This document shows positions 39,111-55,760 of a stretch of DNA of 64,000 nucleotides, piece after piece. The stretch is taken from assembly GCF_007747215.1 (NCBI RefSeq), contig NZ_CP036273.1, forward strand, positions 310,001 through 374,000, written 5' to 3'. The position numbers and the translations under genes were made by a program. The notes under the pieces were generated by a model. It saw nothing but the letters and a program-made list of their open reading frames with translations. It searched no databases and was not told the origin of the DNA. The stretch's first letter is position 1. The number at the start of each line of letters is the position of its first letter. Source of the stretch: Urbifossiella limnaea. Its GTDB lineage: Bacteria > Planctomycetota > Planctomycetia > Gemmatales > Gemmataceae.

Positions 39111-39256
39111 GAGCCCCGAAGGGGCGGCAGCCAATAGCCCGGGGCGCAAGCCCTGGGCAGCGTCGGCGGTGTCACGAGGGGTCACGCGGTTCGGACTTCG
39201 CCGCCGCCTACCCAGGATTTACACCCCGGGCTATTGGCTGCCACCCCTTCGGGCCT
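39111..39256. repeat. large nested palindromic repeat, copy 3 (divergent)
   Basis: Outer arms GCCCCGAAGGGG + CAGCCAATAGCCCGGGG on the left pair with CCCCGGGCTATTGGCTG + CCCCTTCGGG on the right. The inner part differs from the copies at 13911 and 50605, so it is a related but separate subtype. It fills the divergent gap between the CBM9-like gene and pxpA. Confidence 0.8.
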
Positions 39257-43690: not shown

Positions 43691-43833
43691 GCCGGGGGGC
43701 GGGCGCGGCATTGTGCCGCGCCGGCGTGGGGGGCCGTCAAGGGGAACCGCTTGCCGCCCCTACCCCCCTCTCTAGACTGATCCCGCACACGCAGCCCGGC
43801 CCGCCCCGCGGTCCGGGATGTTTTTTGGCCCGG

Positions 43834-43853
43834 CTTGTGAAAAACTTCACAAG
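43834..43853. promoter_or_regulatory. Rex-type redox operator ahead of the nuo operon
   Basis: A perfect 8-bp inverted repeat, CTTGTGAA-AAAC-TTCACAAG. It matches the known Rex repressor site TTGTGAA-N4-TTCACAA at every defined base. Rex senses the NADH/NAD+ ratio and in other bacteria controls nuo and cytochrome genes. It lies 6 bp before a TACAAT -10 box, overlapping where the -35 would be, so bound Rex would block RNA polymerase. No rex gene is in the window. Confidence 0.8.
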
Positions 43854-43859
43854 CCCCGC

Positions 43860-43865
43860 TACAAT
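43860..43865 (+). promoter_or_regulatory. -10 box of the nuo operon promoter
   Basis: TACAAT directly downstream of the Rex-type operator; TTGTGA inside the operator can serve as a -35 with a 19-bp spacer. An ATG overlapping this box (43864) is therefore unlikely to be the nuoA start. Confidence 0.55.
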
Positions 43866-43881: not shown

Positions 43882-43887
43882 GGAGGG
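43882..43887 (+). promoter_or_regulatory. ribosome-binding site deciding the nuoA start
   Basis: GGAGGG lies 6 bp before GTG 43894 and 9 bp before GTG 43897. No such site precedes the ATG at 43864. This favours a GTG start for nuoA. Confidence 0.65.
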
Positions 43888-43893
43888 CGGTGC

Positions 43894-44337
43894 GTGGTGA
43901 CGCCGGTGCCGGTGCCGACTGCGGCGGGGGTCGAACCCGCGTTCGACCTGTCGGCCTACTACCCGATCCTTCTGTTCGCCGGCGCCGCCGCTGCGTTCGC
44001 CCTCGGCTCGTTGCTCGCCACGCACGTGTTCCCGTTCAAGCCCCGTAAGCCCACCCGCGTCAAGCAGATGCCCTACGAGTCCGGCATGGACCCGGTCGGC
44101 TCGGCGCGGATGCAGTTCGACATCAAGTTCTACCTCATCGCCATCCTGTTCCTCGTCTTCGACGTGGAACTGCTGTTCCTCTACCCGTGGGCCGTGCTCG
44201 CCTACGGCGACGGTGGCAGCCCGGCGTGGCGCGAGGCGTTCGGCACCGTCGTGTTCGTCGAAATCCTGGTGTTCCTGGCGACGCTCGCCATCGCCTACGT
44301 GTACGCCTGGCGGAAGGGGGTGTTCCAGTGGCGATGA
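43894..44337 (+). CDS. nuoA: NADH-quinone oxidoreductase subunit A
   Basis: A 147-residue membrane subunit of complex I with three helices. Typical NuoA segments are [36 protein letters not shown] and the LYPWAV stretch that follows. Its length equals that of E. coli NuoA when the GTG start is used. GTG 43894 or 43897 is preferred because of GGAGGG; the upstream ATG falls in the -10 box. It is the first gene of a 14-subunit operon and overlaps nuoB by 4 bp. Confidence 0.9.
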
Positions 44338-47553: not shown

Positions 47554-48024
47554 GTGAGCATCTACGCGACGCTCTGGGCGATGAAGCTCCCCAAGGCCCA
47601 CGCCTTCGACACGGAGTGGATCGAGGTGTACGCGCAGGCCGTGCCCGCGCACATCGGCCACCCGAGTTGCTACCCGGAGGGGGATCCGTACTCGGACTTC
47701 CTTCCGCCGGTCGTGGAATGCGACCCGAAAACCGGTACCGGGCCGTTCGACCGGGCCGTCGTGATCGTGGCTGAAGGTCGTGACGAGAAGGTGGGCCAGC
47801 GGTACACAGACCCGCTGCTCGTGATGACCGGAGCGGAGTACAGCCGGGCGACGTTCGAGGGCTTGCTGGACGCCATCAAGCAAGCCCTACCCTGGGACCG
47901 GGACGTGATTGGGATGTTCACCGGGCCGGGTGGCGAAGAGCGTGTCATCCGGTCGCCTGCGAGACCGGACGACGGAGTAGGACGAGGCGACGCGAGCCCG
48001 ACGACAGATTCACCGCACGGGTAG
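47554..48024 (+). CDS. conserved hypothetical protein between nuoE and nuoF
   Basis: A 156-residue soluble protein starting MSIYATLWAMKLPKAHAFDTEWIEV. Distinct segments are VPAHIGHPSCYPEGDPYSDFLPP, FDRAVVIVAEGRDEKVG, and YTDPLLVMTGAEY. Proteins with this start are remembered as widespread uncharacterised proteins in other phyla, especially actinobacteria; this could not be checked. It is not a complex I subunit. GTG start. The less GC-rich coding sequence than its neighbours hints at later insertion. Confidence 0.7.
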   Translation: MSIYATLWAMKLPKAHAFDTEWIEVYAQAVPAHIGHPSCYPEGDPYSDFLPPVVECDPKTGTGPFDRAVVIVAEGRDEKVGQRYTDPLLVMTGAEYSRATFEGLLDAIKQALPWDRDVIGMFTGPGGEERVIRSPARPDDGVGRGDASPTTDSPHG

Positions 48025-49392: not shown

Positions 49393-49612
49393 CGCCGGCC
49401 GGTCGTTCGGGCCGGGTTCATTGTGTGTACGGCTCCCCCCCGGGGGGTCGAGGCACGAATTGAGTCGATGCCACAAATGAATGTTGGAGCGATTCGGACG
49501 GCGTGAACAGGCTGAAAGTTTGGTGGCTCAAGGGGTTGTGATGGTTCGGCCCGGGGCGCGGCCCCGGGCGGGTTCCGCTGACGATGGATCACTGGCCCGG
49601 GAGGGTGGTGTC

Positions 49613-50575
49613 ATGCGGCGGTTCGCTCTGCTCGCGGTATGCGTCCTGGCGCTGGCCGGGTGCAAGAAGAAGCCGAAGCCGGCCCCGGCCGAGCCCGAGC
49701 CGGCGCCGGGCCTGAAGAAAGACGGCCTGCCGCAAGAAGGGCCGGCGCCGTCGGGCGGTGGCGGTGGGGGCGGCGGCGGCATCATCGCCGCGGGCGGGGG
49801 CATCGGCGTCGTGAACCCGGTGCAGGCGCTCGGCGGCGGGGGCGGCGGCGGGGCGGCGATGGCCGTCCGCAAGGCCGCCCGCCGTACGCAGGCGCTCAAC
49901 GAGCTGAAGAACATCGGCGAGATCATCTTCGCCATGCAGATCGAGACCGGCCGCATGCCGACGGTGCCGCAGATCCTGGAGGAGCTGAAGCGGACGCCGC
50001 AACTGTTGACCGGGGTCTCCGAAGGCGCGTACGTGCTGACCGGAACGACGGAAGCGGGCGGGCTGTACGCCTTCGAGGTGGACGCGGACAAGCAGCCGGG
50101 CATCGCCGTCATCGGCGGCCGCGCCACCCGCTCCACGCCGGAGGAGTTGCGGCCGTACCTCCTGGCGCTCCCGCCGTCGGTGCTTCAGCCGCAGCAGCCG
50201 CAGCAGCCGCCCCGGCAGCCGGCGCCGCAGCCGATGGGAAAGATCGACAACCGCCCGATGCCGCCGCAGCCGGCCGGGCAGCGAATCCCGGTCGGGCAGA
50301 AGGACATGGAGGACGTGCGAATCTTCATCGACAACTTCTCCGGGGCGGGCGGCCGCATGCCGACGCAAGCGGAGACGCGGGCGGCGTTGCAGATGAGCGG
50401 CACGCCGGCGTTCGGGCTGGTGCAGCGCGGGGCCATCACGCTGACCGGCGCCACCACCCGCGAGGGCGTGTGGGCCTACGAGACGGCGGCCGCGAACAGC
50501 GGCGGCCTCATCGCCGGCGCGAACGGGACCGAGACCGTGACCCCCGCCGAGTTCGCCCGCCGGCTGGGGCGGTGA
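49613..50575 (+). CDS. lipoprotein inserted between nuoF and nuoG
   Basis: A 320-residue protein with a classic lipobox (LALAGC, lipid Cys17) followed by Lys/Pro/Gly-rich linkers (GGGGGGGGG runs). Two short related segments follow: ALNELKNIGEIIFAMQIETGRMPT and DMEDVRIFIDNFSGAGGRMPT, each followed by a similar YxLTG or ITLTG stretch. This looks like an internal duplication with a Pro/Gln-rich spacer. The segments resemble the helix-plus-sheet tails of type II pseudopilin-like planctomycete proteins. Function unknown. GGGAGG ribosome-binding site present. Confidence 0.75.
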   Translation: MRRFALLAVCVLALAGCKKKPKPAPAEPEPAPGLKKDGLPQEGPAPSGGGGGGGGGIIAAGGGIGVVNPVQALGGGGGGGAAMAVRKAARRTQALNELKNIGEIIFAMQIETGRMPTVPQILEELKRTPQLLTGVSEGAYVLTGTTEAGGLYAFEVDADKQPGIAVIGGRATRSTPEELRPYLLALPPSVLQPQQPQQPPRQPAPQPMGKIDNRPMPPQPAGQRIPVGQKDMEDVRIFIDNFSGAGGRMPTQAETRAALQMSGTPAFGLVQRGAITLTGATTREGVWAYETAAANSGGLIAGANGTETVTPAEFARRLGR

Positions 50576-54583: not shown

Positions 54584-54630
54584 GCACTGGGGTGACGCGA
54601 CCCGTGCCCTCCGTATAAGAACCCCGACCG

Positions 54631-54650
54631 CTTGTGAAAAACTGCACGAG
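54631..54650. promoter_or_regulatory. degenerate Rex-type site ahead of nuoJ
   Basis: CTTGTGAA-AAAC-TGCACGAG differs from the perfect operator at 43834 at only two bases, and similarity continues into the following AGCCCCGC. Because both mismatches are in the right arm, Rex binding would be weaker. Only 6 bp remain before the nuoJ ATG. GTATAAGA just upstream (54613-54620) could be a -10 box. It may be an internal regulated promoter or a duplicated relic. Confidence 0.45.
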
Positions 54651-54656
54651 CCCCGC

Positions 54657-55760
54657 ATGACCCTCCTCGCCGTGCAACCCCCGTCGGCCGCCGGGCAGCT
54701 CGCGCTGGCCGCCGTCCTCGCCGCGGGCGGCGCGTTCCTGCTGCTGCCGAAGCCCGGCCTGCGCTCCGTCGCCGGCGGCGTCGCGGGGCTCGTCGCCGGC
54801 CTGGCCGTCGCCGTGGCGTGGGTGCTGACCACGTTCGGCGGGCCGGTTACCAACTACGTCGAGACGGTGCTGTTCGCCCTGTTCGCGGCGGGGGCCGTCG
54901 GCTTCGGCGCGGTGCTCGTCACGAACGCGAACCCGGCCCGCGGGGCGATCGCGTTCGCGTTCGTCATCCTCAGCGTGTGCGGGCTGTTCCTGCTGCTGGC
55001 GGCCCCGTTCCTGATGGCCGCGACGGTCATCATCTACGCCGGCGCCATCATCGTGACGTTCCTGTTCGTGCTGATGCTGTCGCAGAACGACGGCCCCTCG
55101 GACGAGAACGACCGCACCCGCGAGCCGCTCCTCGGCAGCCTCGCCGGCTTCGCCTTCGTCGGGCTCATCCTGTTCGCCCTCGGCCAGGGTCACGCCGCGG
55201 AATCCGCCCTTCCCGCCCAGGCGATCACGCCGGCGGAACAAGCCAGCTTGCGGGCCGCGGCCGACCAGCTGAAGGCGCTGGAGGACGACGACTTCTACAC
55301 CGGCCCGACGCCGCGCAAGGAGCGGGCCGACAAGCTGAGCCGCACCGAGGCGGCCATCGAGGACGTGGTCGGCGTGTCGTTCCGCAAGGAGGACGGCACC
55401 CTCCGCGACGGCCCGGTCGCGGCCCGGCTGGCGGTCCGCTCCGACCTGCACGCGCAGGGCGTGCGGGCCCGCGTCGCCGCGGCGCGGGACCAGGCGGCGC
55501 TCGCCTTCCGCTACGCCGAGACCGCCGTCCTCGACCCCGCCCGCGGCCGGCCGGCGGAGGCGAAGGCCGAGGCGACGAAGCTCCGCGAACAGCTGCTGCT
55601 GCTGGCCGGCGTCGGCGAGCTGCCGGCGCGGAACGTCGCCAACCTGGGCGTGCTGCTGTACGCCGACCACCTGCTCGCGGTCGAGCTGGCCGGCACGCTG
55701 CTGCTGGTGGCCACCATCGGCACCGTCGCCATCGCCCACCGCCGGGGGACCGCCGCGTGA
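54657..55760 (+). CDS. nuoJ: NADH-quinone oxidoreductase subunit J with a large soluble insertion
   Basis: A 367-residue membrane subunit, about twice the length of E. coli NuoJ (184). The N-terminal half has the usual helices and FVILSVCGLFLLLAAPFLMAATVIIYAGAIIVTFLFVLML. About 130 polar, helical residues (roughly 180-310, Ala/Glu/Arg-rich) are inserted before the last helix (NLGVLLYADHLLAVELAGTLLLVATIGTVAI). The ATG is directly after the Rex-like site. It overlaps nuoK by 4 bp. Confidence 0.92.
   Translation: MTLLAVQPPSAAGQLALAAVLAAGGAFLLLPKPGLRSVAGGVAGLVAGLAVAVAWVLTTFGGPVTNYVETVLFALFAAGAVGFGAVLVTNANPARGAIAFAFVILSVCGLFLLLAAPFLMAATVIIYAGAIIVTFLFVLMLSQNDGPSDENDRTREPLLGSLAGFAFVGLILFALGQGHAAESALPAQAITPAEQASLRAAADQLKALEDDDFYTGPTPRKERADKLSRTEAAIEDVVGVSFRKEDGTLRDGPVAARLAVRSDLHAQGVRARVAAARDQAALAFRYAETAVLDPARGRPAEAKAEATKLREQLLLLAGVGELPARNVANLGVLLYADHLLAVELAGTLLLVATIGTVAIAHRRGTAA

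Follow-up and report, generated by a model that had tools for sequence, protein, structure and literature searches.

We report that the palindrome at 43835-43852 of the 64,000-nucleotide stretch analysed here (the window) is almost certainly an authentic operator for the NADH sensor Rex, controlling the operon for respiratory complex I (nuo), and that in related genomes an inverted repeat with a T-tract stands at a near-fixed distance ahead of this operator. By a small measure we favour an explanation of the whole arrangement in which Rex controls nuo, acting mainly as a roadblock at a terminator, additionally blocks a second promoter in this lineage, and governs a small regulon.

The nuoA operator and its association with rex

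The region upstream of nuoA contains the following elements, in their order along the window.

43751..43756, + strand: -35 element of promoter P1, TTGCCG (relatives have TTGACN-N16-TANNNT ahead of the hairpin)
43773..43778, + strand: -10 element of P1, TAGACT (16-bp spacer; inferred start near 43785)
43795..43817, + strand: predicted terminator hairpin, CCCGG-C-CCGC-CCC-GCGG-T-CCGGG (9 pairs, one 1x1 mismatch)
43818..43826, + strand: T-tract of the predicted terminator, ATGTTTTTT (its T6 ends at 43826, 8 bp before the operator)
43835..43852, strand not assigned (.): Rex operator of nuoA, TTGTGAAAAACTTCACAA (exact, 14/14)
43837..43842, + strand: -35 element of promoter P2, GTGAAA (within the Rex operator)
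43860..43865, + strand: -10 element of P2, TACAAT (7 genomes have TACAAT or TAGAAT in this position)
43882-43887, + strand: nuoA ribosome-binding site, GGAGGG
43894..44337, + strand: nuoA (GTG start; PF00507; start conservation)

An earlier note on this DNA had proposed a perfect TTGTGAA-N4-TTCACAA operator, and all 14 defined positions are indeed matched, the exact pattern lying in the regulatory region of the operon; the surrounding palindrome reaches 10-bp arms (GGCTTGTGAA-AAAC-TTCACAAGCC). The same note counted 6 bp from operator to TACAAT, a gap that is in fact 7 bp (GCCCCGC), and it placed the nuoA start at the GTG (43894) following GGAGGG, with which close relatives agree: G004 and G005 have GGAGGG and then ATG at the matching place, and G001 has GTG. 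An in-frame ATG at 43864 falls inside the -10 box TACAAT.

Sites with at most three mismatches to the Rex pattern number three in the window, versus 0.12 in dinucleotide shuffles. Nowhere else in the 7.8-Mb genome is the pattern matched exactly, and the nuoA site is also the only place retrieved with at most one mismatch (reversed-pattern control, 0); with at most two mismatches there are five places (control, 2), three of which precede energy operons, namely nuoA, nuoJ and the ATP synthase operon. With few sites elsewhere, the motif is not widespread; wide occurrence at sites unrelated to redox genes is what the earlier note had named as a refutation. Neither a cytochrome bd nor an alcohol dehydrogenase gene was seen behind any of the five. 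The two weak sites of the genome are at 1448992, beyond a dnaB-type gene on its 3' side, and at 6387046, within long open frames.

All nuo genes from A to N are present, with A, B, D, E, F, H, I, J, K and N checked against Pfam or NCBIfam, and C, G, L and M identified from their translations only. Two open frames in the operon, 47554-48024 (nuoE/nuoF) and 49481-50575 (nuoF/nuoG), matched nothing in Pfam or NCBIfam. Another, more distant NuoA-like match lies at G000:C1:1422144-1422377, as also in most relatives, and has no Rex box at up to two mismatches. Elsewhere in the window, an Acido-Lenti-1 RNA (RF01687) at 39112-39157 on the minus strand scores above the gathering threshold.

The genome encodes one Rex protein (G000:C1:6554060-6554722), which scores above the NCBIfam equivalog cut-off of NF003993 and the cut-off of PF06971, contains both Pfam domains, and matches Rex structures in the PDB over its full length (E about 1e-42), thereby supplying the homologue that the earlier note had asked for. 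PF06971 was detected in 48 of 79 relatives. Sixty-three of the 79 have a close nuoA with readable upstream DNA and 15 have no close nuoA; G060, whose nuoA match begins at a contig end, was omitted from the 63. With up to three mismatches allowed, a box precedes nuoA in 41 of 42 genomes with rex versus 4 of 21 without detectable rex (p = 9.8e-11); the corresponding fractions are 34/42 versus 3/21 at up to two mismatches and 27/42 versus 1/21 at up to one, and 37/38 versus 2/17 (up to three mismatches) among genomes at least 90% complete. The reversed-pattern control occurs before nuoA in 2/63. The genomes carrying a box without rex (G016, G036, G039 and G043) are all drafts, 83-92% complete, in which a search for full-length Rex at a loose cut-off returned only a non-significant match, in G039; the opposite exception, G056, has rex and no box. 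A tree of NuoABCD shows 13 changes in rex and 12 in the box, and among nine independent pairs differing in rex, the box follows in six, opposes in none and does not differ in three (median p 0.03), a pattern that we read as the box and rex being lost together. The presence of Rex in the genome and its co-occurrence with the operator across genomes support the control of nuo by Rex that had been suggested from the window itself.

TGTGA-N6-TCACA is also the core of CRP-type sites, and one CRP-type HTH match occurs in the genome, such that the palindrome might be taken for a CRP/FNR-type operator. Yet the box does not follow regulators of that type, being present with strong CRP matches in 11/15 genomes and without them in 34/48 (p = 1.0), and exact boxes occur in G071, G074 and G077, which have no CRP match; it tracks rex instead. 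We consequently rejected CRP/FNR as owner of the site, and give that reading hardly any credence. No autoregulation of rex was seen in the 31 rex loci read, where a box (at most two degenerate mismatches, within about 3 kb) occurs in three and directly before rex only in L024:1343.

Promoters and a predicted terminator ahead of the operator

RNA from 43785 to 43826 folds at -19.0 kcal/mol. Of the 45 loci with a box, 34 have a terminator-like hairpin immediately ahead of it, compared with 2 of 18 boxless loci and none on the reverse strand. For closer comparison we assembled 38 composite loci. Thirty-three come from the 34 in which a terminator was called, and the other five, G052, G065, G069, G071 and G074, combine a T-tract with a weaker hairpin; G023 (37 bp of upstream DNA) and G040 (four mismatches, terminator present) were omitted, and both the hairpin criteria and the list of loci were set after the first sequences had been inspected. 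The distance from the last T run to the operator is 8 bp in 24 loci, 9 in four, 10 in six, 11 in three and 12 in one, hence within 8-12 bp in all 38. The stem is 87% paired across loci, versus 28-50% when slid, although the stem sequences themselves differ. In an alignment of 33 of these loci, covariation is 0.219 versus 0.162 in shuffles, above all 500 of them, and cells changed on both sides number 9 versus 3.3. RNAalifold applied to a MAFFT alignment predicted no consensus structure, and the covariation test therefore depends on a helix named by the analyst. A stable hairpin, a T-tract on the transcribed strand and compensatory changes in the stem together characterize the element as a predicted intrinsic terminator. 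Its order and spacing relative to the operator, its covariation and its co-occurrence with rex are read directly from the sequences. The pattern of T-tract plus box was retrieved from 43 distinct places across the 79 genomes (reversed control, 3), and in 33 cases nuoA follows directly.

A predicted sigma-70 promoter lies upstream of this hairpin. Scored against TTGACN-N16-TANNNT, the 38 loci average 8.37 of 12 versus 5.28 in dinucleotide shuffles (z 9.4), and 23 of them score at least 9, versus at most two in shuffles. In the window, P1 matches 8/12 only and the hairpin carries a mismatch. With starts inferred from sequence, the operator lies inside the transcribed region, downstream of a promoter of the P1 type. 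By contrast, a promoter scoring at least 9/12 follows the terminator in only six of the 38 loci, with weaker ones (8) in G001, G065, G002 and G050. In six box-bearing loci lacking the hairpin, a strong promoter has its -10 element starting 16-24 bp before the operator. The alternative pairing of the T-tract as -35 with the operator as -10 gave no score of 9 or more in the 38 loci and was discarded.

The simplest account of repression would be plain occlusion, with nuo transcribed from P2, Rex covering its -35 element and the hairpin irrelevant. P2 scores 9/12 and is kept in seven genomes of the nearest clade (G000, G001, G003, G004, G005, G037 and G047), and in Streptomyces avermitilis the nuoA1 operator overlaps the -35 element, according to the available part of that account (PMC5355995). 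The geometry described earlier for the window, an operator over the -35 of the TACAAT promoter, occurs in only 7 of the 38 comparable loci; P2 is absent from the other 31, while the upstream promoter and hairpin are retained. Because P2 is rare, and because a conserved promoter lies upstream with a terminator between, occlusion of the -35 element cannot be the general mechanism, and as a complete explanation it appears decidedly unlikely. P2 is present in the window and six relatives, and in this genome direct occlusion may therefore matter more. With the promoter upstream, and a downstream one in seven genomes, polymerase would have to cross both terminator and operator to reach nuoA in most genomes.

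A second possibility is that the terminator insulates nuo from stray upstream transcription, its nearness to the operator having no mechanistic meaning. Terminators between transcription units are common, and some upstream genes do aim at nuo (G001, G002, G003, G006, G013 and G026). The recognised neighbour nevertheless points away from nuo in the window (a divergent aminotransferase), in G012 (a gene of the IMS polymerase family) and in G036 (a Usp gene); elsewhere the neighbours are co-directional genes of several families. Neighbours so unrelated in kind and direction indicate that the terminator belongs with nuo. Insulation is further opposed by the sigma-70 promoter just upstream of the hairpin, by the nearly fixed gap to the operator, by the scarcity of recognisable promoters past the terminator in most loci, and by the rarity of the hairpin where rex is absent (31/42 genomes with rex versus 5/21 without, p = 3e-4). 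We consider insulation improbable.

The hairpin lies about 10 nt from the inferred 5' end of the RNA, a position that would also suit a 5' stabiliser of nuo mRNA, or a small RNA in its own right, with Rex acting separately. Only the stem and T-tract are conserved, however, in a leader with 38% mean column identity, and no Rfam family matches at the hairpin; a stabiliser would moreover need neither a T-tract nor a fixed gap. This reading seems to us very improbable.

Proposed action of Rex at the terminator

Proteins of the Rex family bind DNA and repress in the absence of NADH, which releases them when present. In this host, Rex would occupy the operator and repress nuo when NADH is low, and a high NADH/NAD+ ratio would remove it and permit expression. 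In the type of leader found here and in most Planctomycetia with rex, transcription is predicted to start at P1, some 60 bp upstream, producing an RNA of about 42 nt that would fold into the intrinsic terminator before polymerase meets the operator. A published model of roadblocking assigns the elongating polymerase a footprint of 30 bp (the value as given in the available part of PMC6593788); on that footprint, a complex in the T-tract reaches an operator 8-12 bp ahead, and polymerase with its RNA 3' end in the T-tract would already contact bound Rex. Rex could then act as a roadblock pinning polymerase over the T-tract, where the hairpin frees the RNA. Without Rex, the terminator would be read through: T-tracts in relatives are often interrupted (TTGTTTTTT, TTTCTTTTT), consistent with a terminator of low efficiency by itself. 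A near-fixed gap is required by this roadblock model and not by insulation. In the clade of the window, transcription from P2 would begin past the operator and be prevented by Rex lying over the -35 element.

We judge the chances of such coupling between Rex and the terminator to be about even. A broader proposal, of a 'protein-triggered terminator' across the Planctomycetia at which NADH/NAD+ sets the efficiency of termination and not access to the promoter, is put forward more tentatively, at slightly less than even prospects. It suggests a form of attenuation in which a DNA-bound sensor, rather than a sensor in the nascent RNA, would decide whether a terminator fires. At a LacI roadblock, stalled polymerase terminates with the help of Mfd, which clears it (as far as the available part of PMC6593788 describes); a terminator built in at the point of stalling would do so unaided.

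Further Rex operators and comparison with known systems

A second operator, absent from the earlier note, lies within the nuo operon, a short way past an internal promoter.

54592..54619, + strand: nuoJ promoter, GTGACG-N16-TATAAG (read from sequence)
54632..54649, strand not assigned (.): second Rex operator, TTGTGAAAAACTGCACGA (2 mismatches), before nuoJ, at about +6 from the inferred start
54657..55760, + strand: nuoJ (PF00499)

Twenty loci were fetched for a survey of nuoJ, of which 11 had a readable nuoJ; using at most two mismatches to a pattern with TY and RA ends, the operator was found before nuoJ in 7 of 10 readable relatives with rex, with a TATA-like -10 element just upstream. The nuoJ operator, in the region 54592-54657, has 25 of 27 bases in common with the nuoA site and its flanks.

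A Rex box with up to two mismatches also precedes the ATP synthase operon (G000:C1:7322012), where Pfam matched the downstream genes atpB, E, F, H, A, G and C, an atpI-type match fell below threshold, and the frame tried for atpD had no Pfam match. Of the 76 genomes with a match, 50 loci were read; a box (at most two mismatches, within 1500 bp of atpB) is present in 23/33 with rex versus 3/17 without (p = 8e-4), and the reversed control in 0/50. In 19 of 24 clear boxes, counted from the listing (L129:3013-3030 and the leaders of 23 relatives), TTGAC occurs within the next 6-8 bp, so the atp operator abuts its promoter from the upstream side. This placement is more usual for activators than for repressors. 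A terminator precedes none of the 24. We infer that the nuoA, nuoJ and atp operators constitute a small Rex regulon, through which a single NADH sensor would govern both complex I and ATP synthase in a phylum that has received little study.

Classical leader attenuators, such as trp and riboswitches, likewise have a promoter, a short leader, an intrinsic terminator and then the operon. The order is the same here, but about 10 nt cannot accommodate an antiterminator, aptamer or leader peptide, and a protein bound to the DNA farther downstream would provide the signal. Roadblocks by repressors have been described for PurR, GalR, ArsR, CcpA, CodY and C.Kpn2I in a review (PMC10310618); there, as proposed here, elongating polymerase is stopped by a regulator that binds beyond the transcription start. 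In the available text of that review the word 'intrinsic' is never used, whereas the present arrangement places a built-in intrinsic terminator before the operator, at near-fixed spacing.

Control of nuo and atp by Rex is known in Streptomyces, and its extension to planctomycetes is new. In the available part of the S. avermitilis account (PMC5355995), Rex controls nuoA-N and atpIBEFHAGDC, with footprints at -42 to -16 (nuoA1) and -50 to -22 (atpI). The Streptomyces regulon there resembles the one proposed here in its operator (TTGTGAANNNNTTCACAA), its targets nuo and atp, repression by Rex, weakening of binding by NADH, and the occurrence of operators both over the -35 element and downstream of the start. 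It differs, within that same portion (PMC5355995), in that no terminator precedes the operator in the sites described, no operator is mentioned at nuoJ, and the atp operator lies over the promoter, while the planctomycete ones lie just upstream of TTGAC; cyd and rex-hem are listed there as targets, whereas no box (at most two degenerate mismatches) occurs near rex in L001. A search of the open-access literature found no paper dealing with planctomycete Rex or with the coupling of a repressor to an intrinsic terminator, and as far as that literature shows, the terminator-operator module has not been described.

The module seems confined to the Planctomycetia. In 199 genomes of the phylum, the T-tract with a box was retrieved from 12 (the window's own included), at 14 places versus nine for the reversed control, giving no sign of it outside that class. 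A scan of contigs yielded, among the matches listed, a hairpin with nuoA in at least five of 80 loci read (at least 120 stretches), all from Planctomycetota; L292 in that scan is the same contig as G042:C25 and not an independent case. L319 (Acidobacteria bacterium NP130) has an exact Rex box and a T-tract before a nuoA homologue, with no hairpin called, and in L273 (Planctomycetota PLA2) the terminator and Rex box stand before a gene for a HEAT-repeat protein, not before nuo.
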